From Lentisphaeria bacterium (GTDB taxonomy: Bacteria; Verrucomicrobiota; Lentisphaeria; Oligosphaerales; Oligosphaeraceae): 64,000 bases of DNA. Every line of letters starts with the position of its first letter. The stretch's first letter is position 1. The notes under the pieces are model-generated. The model was not told the origin of the DNA. It saw only the letters and a program-made list of their open reading frames with translations, and did not search any database. The stretch covers positions 1 through 64,000 of the forward strand of contig JAEEYQ010000024.1 of assembly GCA_016288215.1 (NCBI GenBank). The letters run 5' to 3'. Below, in pieces: positions 8,312 through 53,123 of this stretch. The position numbers and the translations under genes were made by a program.

Positions 8312-8398
8312 GCCGGAGTGGCGGAATTGGCAGACGCGCTGCGTTCAGGTCGCAGTGATCGCAAGGTCGTGGGGGTTCAAATCCCTTCTCCGGTACCA
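8312..8398 (+). tRNA. tRNA-Leu (anticodon CAG), copy 1
   Basis: An 87-nt class II tRNA with encoded CCA. The anticodon stem is CTGCG/CGCAG with loop TTCAGGT, giving CAG for codon CUG. A long variable arm (GATC-GCAA-GGTC, one T-G wobble) and the T arm GTGGGGGTTCAAATCCC (G-rich 5' side) are present. The acceptor GCCGGAG pairs with CTCCGGT, so the first pair is G-U. Confidence 0.95.
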
Positions 8399-8453: not shown

Positions 8454-8540
8454 GCCGGAGTGGCGGAATTGGCAGACGCGCTGCGTTCAGGTCGCAGTGA
8501 CCGCAAGGTCGTGGGGGTTCAAATCCCTTCTCCGGTACCA
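8454..8540 (+). tRNA. tRNA-Leu (anticodon CAG), copy 2
   Basis: Identical to the first copy except for one base in the variable arm (GACC instead of GATC), which turns a wobble into a Watson-Crick pair. The two genes are 55 nt apart and probably share a transcript that ends at the terminator just downstream. Confidence 0.95.
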
Positions 8541-46272: not shown

Positions 46273-47040
46273 TCAGCGTCCCATGCCGCGCAGAAGCTCT
46301 GCCGTGAAGTCGGCGGCGCTTTCAGTGGATTGGGAGCATGCCTTCACGAAGCCACTGCCGGAGATGACGCCATCGGCGACCTCCGCCGCGGCATGGGCCG
46401 CCTCTGCGGAGGCAATTCCAAATCCCGCTGCCACAGGCAGAGCGGTATGGCGTTTGATGATGGCGATGTGCTCCCCGATGTTGGGGGGCAGGGCGGCGCG
46501 TTCTCCTGTCACACCTGCGACGTTGATGTAGTAGACGAATCCGCTCATGTCCTTGACAATGCGGATGATACGCTCTTCCGGAGTGAGCGGAGAGACAAGG
46601 GGGATGATGTGGAGACCGTGGGAGCGGGCGGGTTCAAGCAGCTCGTCTCGCTCCTCTAATGGAAGGTCGACGGGCAGGATTGCATCCACTCCAGCCTCTG
46701 CAAGCAGGGTGCATGTGTGGTCGTAACCGAGATGCAGAAGCGGATTCATGTAGCTGAAAAGGACGAGTCCCGTTTTGGGATGGCGCGAGCGGATTCTGGC
46801 GGCGAAGGCGATGACCTTGTGGACGTTCATGCCGGCGGCGATGGCGGTCTGTGAGGCGGCGGAAATGACCGGTCCATCCGCCATGGGGTCGGAGAAGGGG
46901 ACGCCCAGCTCAATGATGTCCGCGCCTTTTTCGATTGCGGCGCAGACGGCGTCCTCGCATCGACTCTCGGTTGGGTATCCGACGCTGGTAAAGATGATAA
47001 GCGGTTTTCGCGCCGCGAAAATGTCAGCGATTCTGTCCAT
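46273..47040 (-). CDS. trpA: Tryptophan synthase alpha subunit
   Basis: Cleaves indole-3-glycerol phosphate to indole and glyceraldehyde-3-phosphate. A 255-residue protein with '[18 protein letters not shown]' (catalytic Glu in ELGVPFSDP), '[15 protein letters not shown]', '[15 protein letters not shown]' with the catalytic Asp region, and '[13 protein letters not shown]' for the phosphate. Start [21 protein letters not shown] at 47040; the longer open frame upstream is the trpB 3' end in another frame. It overlaps trpB by 17 bp, so it is coupled. Last gene of the operon. Confidence 0.95.
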
Positions 47041-48208
47041 GTTTCTCCTTGTATTGTCTGATGTTTTCCATGTCTTTGTCGCCACGGCCTGAAAGATTGA
47101 CGACGATGATGTGGTCGTGGCCGTGCCGTGGCGCCTCGCGGATCGCAAAGGCCAGGGCATGAGAGCTTTCGAGAGCCGGAATGATGCCTTCATAGCGGCA
47201 CAGCATGTCAAAGGCGGCGACAGCCTCGTCGTCGTTGGCGACTTCGTAGAAGGCGCGTCCTTCGTCGGCGAGAAGACAGTGTTCGGGGCCGACGCCTGGA
47301 TAGTCAAGGCCTGCGGAAACGGAGTAGGTGTCCCGCATCTGTCCGTCGGTGTCCTGAAGGAAATATGCCTTCATGCCATGGAGGATTCCCACCTTGCCGC
47401 CGTTGATGGATGCGGCATGCTGTCCCGTTTGTATTCCCATGCCACCGGCCTCGACGCCGATGCGTCGCACGTTCGGCGTATCTTCAAAACCGGCGAACAT
47501 GCCGATGGCGTTGGAGCCGCCGCCGACGCAGGCGACAACCTGGTCAGGAAGGCGTCCGCACATCTCCAGGCACTGCCGTCGCGTCTCCTTTCCAATGACG
47601 GACTGGAAGTCCTTCACTAGCATGGGGTAGGGATAGGGGCCGGCGGCGGTTCCTATGACATAAAACGTTGTGTCGCTGCAGGAGGCCCATTCTCGGAGGG
47701 CCGCGTTCATGGCGTCCTTCAGCGTGGCGCCGCCATCCGTTATGGAACGGACGTGGGCGCCTAGGGCGTGCATCCGGTCCACGTTCGGAGCCTGCCGTGC
47801 CACGTCGACGGCGCCCATGAACACCTCGCACTCCATGCCGAATAGGGCGGCGACAGTGGCGGTGGCGACGCCGTGCATGCCCGCGCCAGTCTCCGCGATG
47901 ACGCGTTTCTTGCCCATGCGTCGAGCGAGCAGGGCCTGTCCCAAGGTGTTGTTGACTTTGTGGGCGCCTGTGTGGTTCAAATCTTCGCGTTTGAGATAGA
48001 TGCGGGAGCCGCCAAGGTGTTCGGAGAGGCGTTTTGCATAATAGAGCGGCGATTCCCGTCCGACGTAATGCTTCAGAAGGTCGTCGAGCTCCCCGTGGAA
48101 GGCGGGGTCGTCCTTTGCCTCCAGATATGTCTGTTCGAGCTCACGAAGGGCTCCCGTAAGGGTTTCAGGGACATACTGTCCCCCATAGATGCCGTAATGC
48201 ATATTCAT
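47024..48208 (-). CDS. trpB: Tryptophan synthase beta subunit
   Basis: Condenses indole with serine using PLP. A 394-residue protein with '[13 protein letters not shown]', '[19 protein letters not shown]' (PLP lysine in HxGxHK), '[14 protein letters not shown]' (catalytic Glu), '[11 protein letters not shown]' (PLP phosphate) and '[10 protein letters not shown]'. Start at 48208 with AAAGGAA 6 nt upstream; an in-frame ATG 6 bp later is also possible. Confidence 0.96.
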
Positions 48209-48236
48209 GGATGATGTTCCTTTTGTTGTCATTTCT

Positions 48237-48854
48237 TCAGTGTTGCCGTTGGGGCTTTTGGCTATTCATGCGCGAGATGGCCTCCGCGAGGTTCTTGAGC
48301 TTGATGGGGGCTTTGATGCCTGGAGCGCTTTCGACGCCGCTGGAGACGTCGATTCCGTCTGGCTGGACAGCGTCAATGGCCTCCTGAACGTTTTTGGCGT
48401 CGATGCCCCCTGCAAGAAGGATTTTGCGGCGTCGCGCCAAGGCGGCGGCCATCTGCCAGTCGCAGGGGGTGCCTGTTCCGCCGCCGGAGTCGGCGACGAT
48501 GAATTCGGCGGGAAAGGCCGTGGCGGCGTTCAGGTCAAAGGGACTGTTGAGGTTGAATGCCTTCCAGACGTTCGTGTGTCGGATGGCGGTGGCGTAGTCC
48601 GCGCTTTCTCCGCCATGCAACTGCACGGCATGGGGATGTAGACGGTCAATGATGCACTGCAGCTCCGCGAGCGGCATGTCCCGCGTCACCAACACGTTTC
48701 GAACTGGCGACATGGCGAAAATTCGCTCTGCCTGCTCAAGGGAGACATGTCGTTTTGACGATGGCACCAGAATGACGCCGATGAAGTCAGCGCCTGCCTG
48801 AGCGGCGGCGATGGCATCGTCCACATGGGAGATTCCGCAGATTTTCAGCAGCAT
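48237..48854 (-). CDS. trpF: Phosphoribosylanthranilate isomerase
   Basis: Amadori rearrangement of PRA to CdRP. A 205-residue TIM barrel: '[28 protein letters not shown]' with the catalytic Cys, 'VQLHGGES', and '[15 protein letters not shown]' with the catalytic Asp and phosphate site. It overlaps the trpC end by 10 bp. Separate from trpC, unlike the fused E. coli enzyme. Confidence 0.94.
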
Positions 48855-49618
48855 TGCAGAAGCTCCTTAAGCGTGTGCCCTGGATGTTCGGCTCGCATGA
48901 GCGTCTCACCGATGAGAAAGCCTTGGGCGCCAGCGTCTTGCAGCATTTTTAGATCGGCATGGGTTTTGACGGCGCTTTCAGCAATGGAAATGTGGCTGGC
49001 GGGAATCCTCTTGAGGAGGGCGGCAGAACGTTCGAGAGAAGTGTTGAATGTGTGGAGGTCCCTTGCGTTGACTCCGATAAGGTCGGCTGCCATGGCGGTT
49101 TCAAGCTCCTCTTCGGTGTGCGCCTCTCCAAGGACGTCAAGCCCTATGGAATGGGCGAACTCCAGAAGCTGGATGAAACGGCGGGCAGGAAGCATGGCGG
49201 CGATCAGCAGGATGCATGAGGCGCCGAATCGTTTTGCCTCTACGATTTGATATTCGTCGAAGATGAAATCCTTTCGGAGCAGGGGAATGGAGACGACGGC
49301 GGCGGCCAGCTCCAGATTGGATTCATCGCCGAGAAAGTAATGGGGCTCGGTCAGGATGGATAGGGCGGCGGCGCCGGCGCCCTCAAGTTCCAGGGCCAGA
49401 GACGGCACATCGATGTCCTTGCGGATGAGTCCTTTGGAGGGAGAGGCGCGCTTGATTTCCGCGATGACGTGAATTCCGTTCCCACGGAAGGCGGACTTGA
49501 AATCTCTTCGAGGCGGAAGAACAAGTGTCTGCTCCAGCAGCCGTTCCATGGGAATCATGCGTTTTCGGTTCTCAAGGCGTGGACGGAGCTTGTCAACGAT
49601 GTCGTTCAGAATGCTCAT
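48845..49618 (-). CDS. trpC: Indole-3-glycerol phosphate synthase
   Basis: Closes the indole ring from CdRP. A 257-residue TIM barrel with 'VIAEIKRASPSKGLIRKD' (catalytic Lys), 'AALSILTEPHYFLG', 'LLRKDFIFDEYQI', 'IGVNARDLHTF' and 'IAESAVKTHADL'. The ATG overlaps the trpD stop (ATGA). Confidence 0.95.
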   Translation of the reverse strand: MSILNDIVDKLRPRLENRKRMIPMERLLEQTLVLPPRRDFKSAFRGNGIHVIAEIKRASPSKGLIRKDIDVPSLALELEGAGAAALSILTEPHYFLGDESNLELAAAVVSIPLLRKDFIFDEYQIVEAKRFGASCILLIAAMLPARRFIQLLEFAHSIGLDVLGEAHTEEELETAMAADLIGVNARDLHTFNTSLERSAALLKRIPASHISIAESAVKTHADLKMLQDAGAQGFLIGETLMRAEHPGHTLKELLQCC

Positions 49619-50619
49619 GCGTGGCTTGCCTCCAGGAGAATCTCCAGTTTGCGGAGCGCGGCGCCGGAATCAATGGAACGTTCGGCGAGAATGACGCAAT
49701 CGTGCAGGTTGGAGCCCAAGCCGGCGACCAAGCAGGTGGCGGCGGCGTTAAGCACGACCATGCCGCGCCGTGCGCTGATGTCATGCCCCTCAAGAATCTG
49801 GCGGAGGATGACGGCGTTTTCCTCCGGTGTCCCGCCAGAGGTGGTTCCAATGGTCTCGTTGGGCGGGAGGTATTCCAATGGCTCAATGATGGAGTAGCGG
49901 ATGCTTTCGTGGTCAAGGATGGCACAGTCGGTGGAGGCGGTCGCTGAGATTTCGTCCATGCCGTCTTGGCTGTGGATGACCATGGCGCGCTTCATGCCAA
50001 GGCCGTGAAGGGCTTCCGCGAAGAGCGGGAGCAGTTTGGCGTCCCATACACCCAGGACGATGCCTTCGGCGTTGGCGGGATTCGACAGGGGCCCCAGCAG
50101 GTTGAAGATGGTATGGACACCAAGTGCCTTGCGAAGCGGAGCGACCTTTCCCATGACAGGATGGAGCGTTTTCGCGAAGAGGAAGCCGATTCCATTCTCC
50201 CGTATGGTGTTGGCGACGGCCTCATGGGGCATGTCAAGGTTGTATCCGAGGGCGGCCAGCACATCAGCGGCGCCGCTTTTGCCGGAAACTGCTCGGTTGC
50301 CGTGCTTTGCGACTGTTGCGCCAGCTCCTGCCGCAACGAAGGCGGCGGTGGTGGAGACGTTGAACGAGACTCCGCCGTCTCCGCCGGTTCCCACCACGTC
50401 GACGCAGGGTTTGCCGACATGGATGGCGTGGGCGTGCGCCTTGAGGTAGCGGGCGGCCCCGATGAGCTCCGAGACGCTTTCCCCTTTCATCTCAAGGGCG
50501 CCGAGGAGGGCGCCTGCCTGCGCAAAGTTGTCGGTTGATGCCATGAGGTCCAGCATTCTGGCGGCTTCCTCCTCGGTAAGGTCAATTCCGTTCATGATGT
50601 TTTGCAATAGCTCTTTCAT
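49615..50619 (-). CDS. trpD: Anthranilate phosphoribosyltransferase
   Basis: Adds the phosphoribosyl group of PRPP to anthranilate. A 334-residue protein with 'DVVGTGGDGGVSFNVST' (PRPP loop), 'VAKHGNRAVSGKSGAADVLAALG' and 'HPVMGKVAPLRKALGVHTIFNLLGPLSNP' (in parts). Start MKELLQNIMNG at 50619 with CAGGAG 9 nt upstream. Lies 32 bp after trpG. Confidence 0.95.
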   Translation of the reverse strand: MKELLQNIMNGIDLTEEEAARMLDLMASTDNFAQAGALLGALEMKGESVSELIGAARYLKAHAHAIHVGKPCVDVVGTGGDGGVSFNVSTTAAFVAAGAGATVAKHGNRAVSGKSGAADVLAALGYNLDMPHEAVANTIRENGIGFLFAKTLHPVMGKVAPLRKALGVHTIFNLLGPLSNPANAEGIVLGVWDAKLLPLFAEALHGLGMKRAMVIHSQDGMDEISATASTDCAILDHESIRYSIIEPLEYLPPNETIGTTSGGTPEENAVILRQILEGHDISARRGMVVLNAAATCLVAGLGSNLHDCVILAERSIDSGAALRKLEILLEASHA

Positions 50620-50651
50620 GGTTGTTTTCTCCTGTTGAATAGAGGTGAAAA

Positions 50652-51227
50652 TCATTCTCCTCGGCACATTTCAAGGAAGTTCATGAGGTGCTGACGTCCA
50701 AATTCTGTCATGATGGACTCAGGATGGTACTGAATTCCCTCAATTGGAAGGGATTTGTGGCGAATGCCCATGATTTCACCATCTTCGGAACGGGCGGTTA
50801 CTTCCAGACAGTCTGGAATGGACTGTTGCTCAAGCGCTAGCGAATGGTAGCGGACGGCTTTGAAATTCTGCGGAATCCCCTTGAAAAGCCCTTTGCCGTC
50901 ATGGGTGATGGCGGAGAGCTTGCCGTGCATGATGCGTGTGGCGGAGACGACCTTGGCACCGAAGGCCTGTCCAATTGCCTGATGGCCAAGGCATACGCCC
51001 ATCATGGGAAGCTTGCCTGCGGCGGCGTCGATAAGCGCGAGCATGCAGCCTGCGTTTTCAGGGCGGCTGGGGCCAGGCGAGAGCAGGATGCCTTCGGGAC
51101 GCATGGCCATGATCGCCGCCACGGAGGTCTCGCGGTTGCGCTCCACGACGAGTTCCACTCCTAAGGAACCCAGAAGGTGCACAAGATTGTAGGTAAAGGA
51201 GTCGTAGTTGTCAAGAACAAAGATCAT
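50652..51227 (-). CDS. trpG: Anthranilate synthase component II (glutamine amidotransferase)
   Basis: Supplies ammonia from glutamine to TrpE. A 191-residue class I amidotransferase with 'ILLSPGPSRPENAG', 'GVCLGHQAIGQAFGA' (nucleophile Cys) and 'IQYHPESIMTEFG' (His-x-Glu). Overlaps trpE by 4 bp (ATGA). It could also serve p-aminobenzoate synthesis, as in other bacteria with a single TrpG. Confidence 0.95.
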   Translation of the reverse strand: MIFVLDNYDSFTYNLVHLLGSLGVELVVERNRETSVAAIMAMRPEGILLSPGPSRPENAGCMLALIDAAAGKLPMMGVCLGHQAIGQAFGAKVVSATRIMHGKLSAITHDGKGLFKGIPQNFKAVRYHSLALEQQSIPDCLEVTARSEDGEIMGIRHKSLPIEGIQYHPESIMTEFGRQHLMNFLEMCRGE

Positions 51228-52702
51228 TTGAGGTTCCTCCCTGCGAATTCAATGCTTTTGAATAGAGCTGCGGCCTTGTTGATGGTTTCCTGATATTCGT
51301 TTGCAGGCACGGAATCATAGACGATTCCAGCTCCTGCCTGGACGCGGATCTTCCCGTTTCTGGCTTCGATGGTGCGGATGGTGATGGCCATGTCCATGTT
51401 GCCGTCGTAGCTGATGTAGCCCACGCAACCGCCATATGCCCCCCGTGGAGCGGGCTCAAGTTCGTTGATGATCTCCATCGCGCGGATTTTGGGGGCTCCG
51501 GAGAGGGTGCCTGCGGGGAAGGCGGTGGCGAGCAGGTCAATGGCGTCGTATTTTGAGTCGAGAATGCCTTCGACATCGCTCACGATATGCATGACATGGG
51601 AGTACTTTTCGACGTTCATGAAGGATTTGACCTGCACACTGCCATTGACGGCGGTTCTGCCCACGTCGTTCCGCGCCAAGTCCACAAGCATCAGATGCTC
51701 TGCGCACTCCTTCTCGTCATGGAGCAGTTCGTCCATGAGATGTCGGTCGTCTGCGGGCGTAGCGCCGCGTTGTCGGGTCCCTGCGATGGGGCGCACCGTG
51801 CTGTGGCCGTTCTCCAGTTTCACAAGCGTTTCTGGCGAAGAGCCCACAAGGGTCTCATCGCCAAGTTTGAGGAAAAACATGTATGGAGAGGGGTTGACGA
51901 GACGCAAGGCACGGTACATGAGGAAGGGAGGAATGGCTGTTTCTGATGTAAAGCATTGCGATGGAACAACTTGTATTATCTCTCCTTCGGTGATGTACTG
52001 TTTGGCCTTCTCAACCATGCTCTCGAAGTTCTCCCGCGTCATTTCCGGTTTCAGGACGACGGCCTCCTCCTTCATGACGGAGATGTGGCTATTGACTGGC
52101 GTCTCGATGCGCTCGACAAGCGCACGAAGTTCTTTTTCGCCTGCGTTGAAGGCGGCGCGCTTGCTACTGTAGTTGTCGATGTTGACATTGACAATGACCA
52201 TCATGGTGTGGCGCATGTTGTCAAAGGCGATGATTTCATCCGCTAGCATGAAGGCGCAGAGGGGCGTGGCGTCTCCCGGCTTTGGTGGAGGAAGCTTCTC
52301 GAACATGCCAGCCGCCTCGTAGCTGCAATAGCCGATGGCGCCGCCGGGAAGCGGGGGTAGAAGCGGATCGTGCACGATTTTTCGGCTGGACAGGAGCGGA
52401 CGCAGCGCGTCAAGGGGGAATTTGTCGTATTTCAGCTTCAGTCTCTGACCGGACACAATCACGTAGGGGTCGTTGTCTATGACCGCGAACATCCCTTTGG
52501 GATTGACGCCGAGGAAGGAGTATCGTCCGAATTTCTCGCTGTTTTCGACGCTTTCCATCAGACAGACGTTTTCGTCATCGGCAAATCGCTCAAGGACGGA
52601 GACCGGGGTCTCCATGTCAGCGGGAAGCTCCTGGAAGATGGGGACGATGGCTCCCTTCTCGGCAAACTTCTCGAATCTCTCAAAATCGGTTTTCTTCATC
52701 AT
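51224..52702 (-). CDS. trpE: Anthranilate synthase component I
   Basis: Makes anthranilate from chorismate with TrpG. A 492-residue protein. The N-terminal feedback site shows 'VCLMESVENSEKFGRYSFLG' (LLES-type tryptophan-binding motif). The chorismate-binding half has 'PSPYMFFLKLGDETLVGSSPETLV', 'RPIAGTRQRG', 'VDLARNDVGRTA' and 'GAPKIRAMEIINELEP'. The first of two adjacent ATGs is used, with GGAG 7 nt upstream. First structural gene of trpEGDCFBA and directly preceded by the attenuator leader. Confidence 0.96.
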   Translation of the reverse strand: MMKKTDFERFEKFAEKGAIVPIFQELPADMETPVSVLERFADDENVCLMESVENSEKFGRYSFLGVNPKGMFAVIDNDPYVIVSGQRLKLKYDKFPLDALRPLLSSRKIVHDPLLPPLPGGAIGYCSYEAAGMFEKLPPPKPGDATPLCAFMLADEIIAFDNMRHTMMVIVNVNIDNYSSKRAAFNAGEKELRALVERIETPVNSHISVMKEEAVVLKPEMTRENFESMVEKAKQYITEGEIIQVVPSQCFTSETAIPPFLMYRALRLVNPSPYMFFLKLGDETLVGSSPETLVKLENGHSTVRPIAGTRQRGATPADDRHLMDELLHDEKECAEHLMLVDLARNDVGRTAVNGSVQVKSFMNVEKYSHVMHIVSDVEGILDSKYDAIDLLATAFPAGTLSGAPKIRAMEIINELEPAPRGAYGGCVGYISYDGNMDMAITIRTIEARNGKIRVQAGAGIVYDSVPANEYQETINKAAALFKSIEFAGRNLK

Positions 52703-52776: not shown

Positions 52777-52810
52777 CAAAAAAAGACGGACCGGCATGGC
52801 CAGTCCGTCT
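52777..52810 (-). terminator. Rho-independent terminator in the trp leader
   Basis: AGACGGACTGGC-CAT-GCCGGTCCGTCT (12-bp stem, one G-U) followed by a run of seven T, ending 75 nt before the trpE start. There is no gene between the leader and trpE, so its purpose is premature termination. Confidence 0.92.
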
Positions 52811-52883
52811 CTATTCAATCCGTTGTCTCTTCAGGGGATGCCCCCTGTCAAATCAAAGCACAAGGTATCGTGACGGTGGCCAT
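52777..52883 (-). promoter_or_regulatory. trp operon transcription attenuator
   Basis: On the minus strand, the segment AUGGCCACCGUC (52883-52872) can pair with GACGGACUGGCCAU (52809-52796): 12 pairs with a 2-nt bulge. That pairing would destroy the terminator stem at 52784-52810. The upstream half of this antiterminator begins ~12 nt past the second Trp codon of a short leader ORF, so a ribosome stalled there leaves it free, whereas a ribosome that reaches the leader stop covers it. A separate small hairpin CAGGGG-GCAT-CCCCTG (52832-52847) lies between. This is the layout of ribosome-mediated attenuation, deduced from sequence only. Confidence 0.75.
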
Positions 52884-52936
52884 ATTGACCTCCGCCAGCA
52901 CCAAGCCTGAGCTTTGACTGTACAATTCGGATTCAT
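52853..52936 (-). CDS. trpL: Putative trp leader peptide (three Trp codons)
   Basis: A 27-codon ORF (ATG at 52936, TGA at 52853-52855), too short for ordinary gene finding. It encodes Trp at positions 12, 14 and 19 in the stretch AWCWRRSIW. Trp is the rarest codon, and three within eight codons directly ahead of a terminator and trpE is hard to explain by chance. No Shine-Dalgarno is visible before this ATG, so translation could be leaderless or weak. A rival 11-codon ORF (ATG at 52883, with GGAGG 5 nt upstream, no Trp) overlaps it in another frame. Confidence 0.6.
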   Translation of the reverse strand: MNPNCTVKAQAWCWRRSIWPPSRYLVL

Positions 52937-53123
52937 GGATAATCTATGTTTTCGACAGCAGATTTTGAAACTTATATCAAATATGATGGCTCTTTTCTAA
53001 AATGCAAATCAACATGTGAAAAAAAGTCGGAACACAGGAAGACGCAGATCCGTGCCGCCAAAGCCATGGTTGAATCAAGTCCCCACCATGGCGAATGCTG
53101 CTTTGGAGTTCAGATGGCAAATG

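Follow-up and report, generated by a model that had tools for sequence, protein, structure and literature searches.

A probable ribosome-mediated trp attenuator in Lentisphaeria, with candidate serial-terminator and trpB2-linked forms among its relatives

A 2010 survey placed all leader peptide systems known until then in Proteobacteria and Actinobacteria, and added a His leader from Firmicutes (PMC2965389). In E. coli, a short trpL ORF with clustered Trp codons and an intrinsic terminator precede trpE, and the leader RNA can form 1:2, 2:3 and 3:4 pairings. The trpL of Sinorhizobium and other alphaproteobacteria, which encodes peTrpL, is likewise short, precedes trpE and has Trp codons in a row, and in S. 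meliloti it is leaderless, with the start codon at the 5' end of the transcript (PMC7298713). The candidate trp attenuators of the actinobacteria Corynebacterium and Streptomyces are of the classical type, with double or triple UGG codons and GC-rich terminators (PMC1262725). More than one attenuation unit can occupy a single leader, as in Salmonella mgtCBR, where tandem attenuators sense different signals, ATP and proline (PMC3641672).

Here we analyse a 64,000-nucleotide stretch of a Lentisphaeria bacterium genome (the window). Read directly from the sequence, its minus strand at 52936-52778, ahead of trpEGDCFBA, carries a leader ORF, an antiterminator and a terminator (Table 1). The alternative pairings and their logic are those of E. 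coli, and an intrinsic terminator precedes trpE in both. There is, however, no recognisable sequence relation to E. coli trpL (no Rfam match), nor does the window leader have a Shine-Dalgarno sequence. In the window and its close relatives the ORF continues for 13 codons past the last clustered Trp, so that segment 2 lies inside it, whereas the E. coli trpL stop falls between segments 1 and 2. The leader is also unrelated in sequence to Sinorhizobium trpL, from which it differs further in a predicted 5' UTR of ~35-40 nt and, in many relatives, in two serial terminators. It resembles the Corynebacterium and Streptomyces attenuators in being of the classical type, in a different phylum. From its sequence features, the element very probably regulates trpEGDCFBA by ribosome-mediated transcription attenuation in response to charged tRNA-Trp.

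Pfam and NCBIfam confirm the gene order trpE-trpG-trpD-trpC-trpF-trpB-trpA, first proposed from the letters alone. Assignment of the host to Lentisphaerota is supported, because 'Victivallales bacterium' MAGs from ruminants, whose TrpE is 80-83% identical, are the closest named relatives. We define the near clade as the window plus five genomes (L002-L006) at that level of TrpE identity.

Table 1. Positions of the leader elements and trp genes in the window, and of the trpB2 gene on contig C46 of the same genome.
Feature	Position	Strand	Remarks
Predicted sigma-70-like promoter, TTGCAT-N16-CATATT	52980..53007	(-)	By eye, by analogy with L005/L006
Leader peptide ORF, MNPNCTVKAQAWCWRRSIWPPSRYLVL then stop	52853..52936	(-)	27 codons; homologous ORFs of 25-27 aa in L002-L006
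Trp codon 12, regulatory (predicted)	52901..52903	(-)	WxW common to all six near-clade members
Trp codon 14, regulatory (predicted), overlaps segment 1	52895..52897	(-)	WxW common to all six near-clade members
Trp codon 19, inside segment 2	52880..52882	(-)	Arg instead in L002
Segment 1, GGCGGAGGUC, 5' arm of the 1:2 anti-antiterminator hairpin	52887..52896	(-)	Hairpin folding
Segment 2, AUGGCCACCGUC, alternative partners segment 1 or segment 3	52872..52883	(-)	
Segment 3, GACGGACUGGCCAU, forms the antiterminator with segment 2 or the terminator with segment 4	52796..52809	(-)	
Intrinsic terminator	52778..52812	(-)	12-14 bp stem, 3-nt loop, 7-U tract
trpE, first gene of the operon	51224..52702	(-)	TIGR00564 trpE_most, 545.9 bits, above cut-off
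trpG-trpD-trpC-trpF-trpB-trpA, tightly packed	46273..51227	(-)	Pfam and NCBIfam
trpB2 gene match, after leader L307	contig C46 6824-8074		

The leader ORF is present as the sequence-only reading described it, with Trp at codons 12, 14 and 19, and its reading frame is conserved in the five relatives. The regulatory cluster in the window is WCW (codons 12-14) plus W19. No Shine-Dalgarno sequence is visible before the window ATG. In L002-L006 an ORF of 25-27 codons occupies the same place, has the WxW motif (WWW or WYW) and a conserved C-terminal end, and is followed by a terminator with U7. Loss of the Trp codons in close relatives, which would have spoken against attenuation, was not seen, as WxW is kept in six of six near-clade members. 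Trp codon 19 is not strictly conserved, because Arg replaces it in L002, and it is probably dispensable for regulation. The promoter call is modelled on L005 and L006, where TATATT lies 38-39 nt 5' of the leader ATG; the window sequence is a weak match and is absent from the output of a consensus promoter scan. By this analogy, transcription would start ~35-40 nt 5' of the leader ATG; across the near clade, ~36-43 nt separate the -10 box from the ATG. A transcription start downstream of 52880 would be incompatible with attenuation; the predicted promoter instead lies upstream of the ORF.

The antiterminator, formed by segments 2 and 3, is a 12-bp pairing with an AC bulge. Its coordinates and pairing agree with the earlier description, and segment 2 begins 11 nt beyond Trp codon 14. 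The terminator hairpin, AGACGGACUGGC-CAU-GCCGGUCCGUCU, lies at 52810-52784 and is followed by seven T at 52784-52778; it was recovered independently by a terminator scan, with a folding energy of -21 to -23 kcal/mol. The proposed 12-bp stem and seven U stand, but not its placement just before trpE, from which it is separated by ~80 nt. Antiterminator and terminator are mutually exclusive as claimed, since segment 3 is shared by the 2:3 and 3:4 pairings. An additional hairpin, which the sequence-only reading had not noticed, forms between segments 1 and 2 (GGCGGAGGUC-AAUAU-GGCCACCGUC, 52896-52872, -12.3 kcal/mol) and overlaps Trp codon 14. Both it and the antiterminator use segment 2 and are thus mutually exclusive, and it completes the E. 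coli-type set of three structures.

The minimum-energy fold of the full leader is always the terminator, even with a ribosome mask over the ORF. Such insensitivity is expected at equilibrium, and we therefore replaced full-leader folding by prefix (nascent) RNA folding with defined ribosome positions. The nascent fold with a stalled ribosome gave the antiterminator. In the window, segment 3 was sequestered at 0.70 with the ribosome stalled on Trp, against 0.00 without a ribosome and 0.09 with the ribosome at the stop codon. The best duplex between spacer and terminator arm has an energy of -19.4 kcal/mol, a value that 5 in 1000 shuffles reach. Taken by itself, sequestration of the terminator arm is a weak statistic: with a stalled ribosome it exceeds that of shuffles only modestly (0.71 versus 0.56 for the first terminator at all loci), and 23 of 200 shuffles match the value for the window.

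In the six near-clade sequences the 2:3 pairing is kept in 87.5% of cells, compared with 6-37% when the partner is slid, so that loss of the antiterminator in close relatives was not seen either. The 1:2 pairing is kept in 81.5% of cells versus 28-56% when slid (six relatives). Nascent folding with a stall at the first Trp codon gave the antiterminator in six of six, and the complete RNA gave the terminator. For L005 and L006, whose 1:2 hairpin is weak, folding predicts the antiterminator even when the ribosome has reached the stop codon. The six nearest sequences are too conserved to contain two-sided compensatory changes in segment 2:3, and evidence of covariation therefore rests on more distant relatives.

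With its Trp-cluster ORF, terminator, reachable and mutually exclusive antiterminator, and 1:2 hairpin, the locus has the make-up of a trp-type attenuator. RNA polymerase would start upstream of 52936, with a ribosome following on the leader ORF. When Trp is ample, the ribosome would clear codons 12 and 14, the 1:2 hairpin or the ribosome would occupy segment 2, and segment 3 would pair with segment 4 to form the terminator that halts transcription. When Trp-tRNA is scarce, the ribosome would stall at Trp codon 12 or 14 and cover segment 1, leaving segment 2 free to pair with segment 3; no terminator would form and the operon would be read. We infer translation of the leader ORF, stalling of ribosomes on it and Trp-responsive read-through from the arrangement of these elements. 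Classical ribosome-mediated trp attenuation, as first suggested for this locus, is the best reading, given an order and spacing of elements as expected and the class-wide occurrence of Trp-specific leaders. That the window holds a genuine trp attenuator, a known mechanism in a new lineage, is well supported; the two-terminator arrangement and the trpB2 connection, both predicted from comparison of relatives, are the more novel parts.

We searched for TrpE in 198 genomes of the class, found it in 131, and took the trpE upstream regions of all loci with a usable start. These regions were scanned for ATG-initiated ORFs of 8-45 codons with clustered Trp, using dinucleotide shuffles and the reverse strand as controls. 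Of 92 trpE loci, 72 have an upstream ORF with clustered Trp, whereas shuffles yield 1.9 and the reverse strand 3; for clusters of at least three Trp the corresponding numbers are 48, 0.3 and 0. Among the other amino acids none reaches a comparable enrichment in ORFs 5' of trpE at these loci, demonstrating that the leaders are specific to Trp across the class. A Trp leader together with a terminator is present at 78 trpE loci in five families: 21/21 in f1 (the family of the window), 33/34 in f14, 20/21 in f24, 2/2 in f23 and 2/3 in f8. The predicted attenuator is far more widespread than the window genome alone. At one f14 locus (L068) the trpE terminator is present and the leader is apparently degraded (MNRQTTTTWRTMTMRINP, with a single Trp). 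Families f2, f5, f9 and f10 keep the Trp leader ORF and lack a U-tract terminator; the GC-rich loci L028, L029, L075, L079, L080 and L084 have a Trp-cluster ORF 5' of trpE without such a terminator. These GC-rich relatives possibly use another form of termination. No leader was found in the outer families f11, f12, f15, f16, f17 and f19 (14 loci sampled). Within 1.5 kb upstream, a range that misses distant operon starts, the relatives show no His leader before hisG (30 loci) and no Leu/Ile/Val leader before leuA (23 loci).

A predicted -10 box lies 9-10 nt before the leader ATG in 24 leaders, often as CATYATG, and the mRNAs of these leader peptides are therefore predicted to be nearly leaderless, resembling S. 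meliloti trpL. Close -10 boxes of this kind were noted at L031-L035, L037-L044, L045, L047, L056, L059, L063, L064, L066 and L069.

Could the leader ORF have arisen by chance beside an ordinary unregulated terminator, for instance one insulating the operon from upstream transcription? The missing Shine-Dalgarno sequence, the commonness of intrinsic terminators and the frequency with which shuffles sequester the terminator by chance would all fit. Trp-cluster ORFs at 72 of 92 trpE loci, where chance gives about 2, and at 36 of 49 trpB2 loci against 0.6, together with the fixed order of leader, segment 2 and terminator, make this very improbable. Devices of other kinds do sense Trp, and T-box and TRAP are regulators of trp operons in Firmicutes. 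That a T-box, TRAP or an unknown riboswitch does so here, with the ORF incidental, is still less probable: it leaves the clustering of Trp codons in one frame unexplained, and in the window and 15 relatives no Rfam model gave a match, including Trp_leader (RF00513, at the gathering score) and the T-box covariance models. The predicted working of the leader is that of trp leaders, but it falls outside the Rfam family of that name. At gathering and permissive thresholds, Rfam returned only chance matches in the leader region. Repeats of the TRAP type amount to about four (G/U)AG triplets in 52936-52778, against the eleven or so of TRAP targets.

The leader might instead act mainly after transcription, through its RNA or peptide in trans (as rnTrpL and peTrpL) or through translational coupling between the ORF and trpE. 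In S. meliloti both the terminated trpL RNA and the peptide have trans functions (PMC7298713), and the retention of a Trp ORF without a U-tract terminator in some GC-rich relatives (f2, f5, f9 and f10) would suit such a role. The window and 78 trpE loci, however, have strong terminators with alternative pairing, and direct coupling is unlikely because ~150 nt separate the leader stop from trpE. A trans role would, moreover, add to attenuation in cis rather than replace it, and we consider a mainly post-transcriptional role highly unlikely. Attenuation by a translating ribosome remains the preferred reading.

At no fewer than 30 trpE loci, one Trp leader is followed by two serial terminators, the first ~45-55 nt and the second ~85-115 nt from the leader stop. 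Loci of this form include L008, L012-L014, L016-L018, L020, L031-L034, L038, L041-L044, L048, L056, L060, L063-L065, L069 and others. Many of these leaders end right at the Trp cluster (WWRWW, FSWRWR and FWSWSWR, each followed by the stop codon). A segment 2a with the sequence CCGYC, 2-4 nt past the leader stop, can base-pair with the GRCGG at the start of terminator 1. Its variable base and partner are C-G at 22 loci, U-A at 11, U.G at 2 and mispaired at none, counts for which the search pattern itself limits the letters allowed; a switch occurs within one genus. The 5' arm of terminator 2 finds its partner in segment 2b (GRCCGGGU, GCUGGAU, CCGGAA, GCACUCCGG and others). For terminator 1, own pairs are more stable than pairs swapped between genera (-13.4 versus -12.1 kcal/mol, p=0.003, 18 genera or groups), as they are for terminator 2 (-16.2 versus -14.0 kcal/mol, p=0.0006, 17 genera or groups). 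This co-variation of both pairings between genera suggests a bipartite antiterminator, in which segment 2a would disarm terminator 1 and segment 2b (e.g., GRCCGGGU) terminator 2. The two pairings cross, because the order is 2a, 2b, terminator 1, terminator 2, and the antiterminated RNA would adopt a pseudoknot or hand over sequentially as the polymerase passes.

On balance we favour, with some reserve, the reading that a single Trp leader peptide governs both serial terminators via a bipartite segment 2 in many Lentisphaeria, and that the same kind of leader controls trpB2. The serial-terminator form looks like a new variant of the attenuator: the open-access literature searched gave no description of a single leader peptide acting on two intrinsic terminators, and the text searched on actinobacterial attenuators no two-terminator form. 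If true, it would be a new means of making termination tighter with a single sensor. At eight further trpE loci (L009, L010, L022, L024, L052, L057, L091 and L092; probably also L026), whole leader-plus-terminator units are repeated in tandem. This resembles mgtCBR in placing more than one attenuation unit in a leader; the mgtCBR units, however, lack intrinsic terminators, whereas here both units have Trp leaders, or one leader serves two intrinsic terminators.

The link to trpB2 emerged from a blind scan of the 198 genomes with a DNA pattern made of the leader end and segment 2, which gave 15 matches, ten of them trpE leaders. Two of the other five are Trp leaders followed by terminators and then a TrpB-like gene: MKTLDHNMFFGWWCWR followed by stop and a terminator in genome G191, and a leader ending in AITWSWRSSVAAGLHV and stop with two terminators in G141, a genome in which TrpE gave no match. 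We then identified TrpB-like genes with TIGR01415 and took 70 upstream regions, 28 of which contain a leader plus a terminator. In the families with trpE leaders, a Trp-cluster ORF precedes trpB2 at the 36 of 49 loci mentioned above, compared with 0.6 in shuffles and none on the reverse strand. The window organism has its own trpB2 leader, MAHFENAYWRWRRFHSVAADGCLVL and stop (L307, genome G000, contig C46 6521-6598), followed by a terminator, with a second terminator visible by eye. A DNA similarity search for a further copy of the window leader within the same genome returned none; the trpB2 leader is too divergent and came to light via the pattern search and trpB2 itself. If the same device controls trpB2, this gene would be part of the Trp-starvation response. 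The Trp leader also makes the debated role of the TrpB-like enzyme testable, since it predicts induction of trpB2 by Trp shortage, including in G141.

The earlier remark that such attenuation had not been described in this phylum agrees with the open-access literature searched and with Rfam, neither of which gave a match; among the papers covered, none linked Lentisphaera to attenuation and leader peptides, or Victivallales to trpE. The attenuator predicted here would extend leader-peptide attenuation to a lineage of the PVC group without examples in the literature searched, and the ~78 comparative examples constitute a natural data set on attenuator evolution, with single, serial-terminator, tandem and apparently leaderless forms. 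Trp-rich or aromatic-rich leaders with terminators also precede trpE in Latescibacterota, Neomarinimicrobiota, Armatimonadetes, Desulfobacterales and one Bacteroidetes MAG. Their presence in several other phyla implies that being first in this phylum reflects sampling more than rare invention, and that leader-peptide trp attenuation is probably widespread and under-recorded. These leaders were seen at L150, L173 and L179 (Latescibacterota), at L153, L159, L178, L180 and L191 (Neomarinimicrobiota), and at L164, L144, L143 and L147. Their peptides include FWYFWRR...YYYYRR and YYSWYWFFS, and in some of them codons for Phe, Trp and Tyr occur together, as if all aromatic amino acids were sensed.

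Elsewhere in the window, on the plus strand, two tRNA genes at 8312-8395 and 8454-8537 have identical Rfam scores and are possibly a recent tandem duplication.
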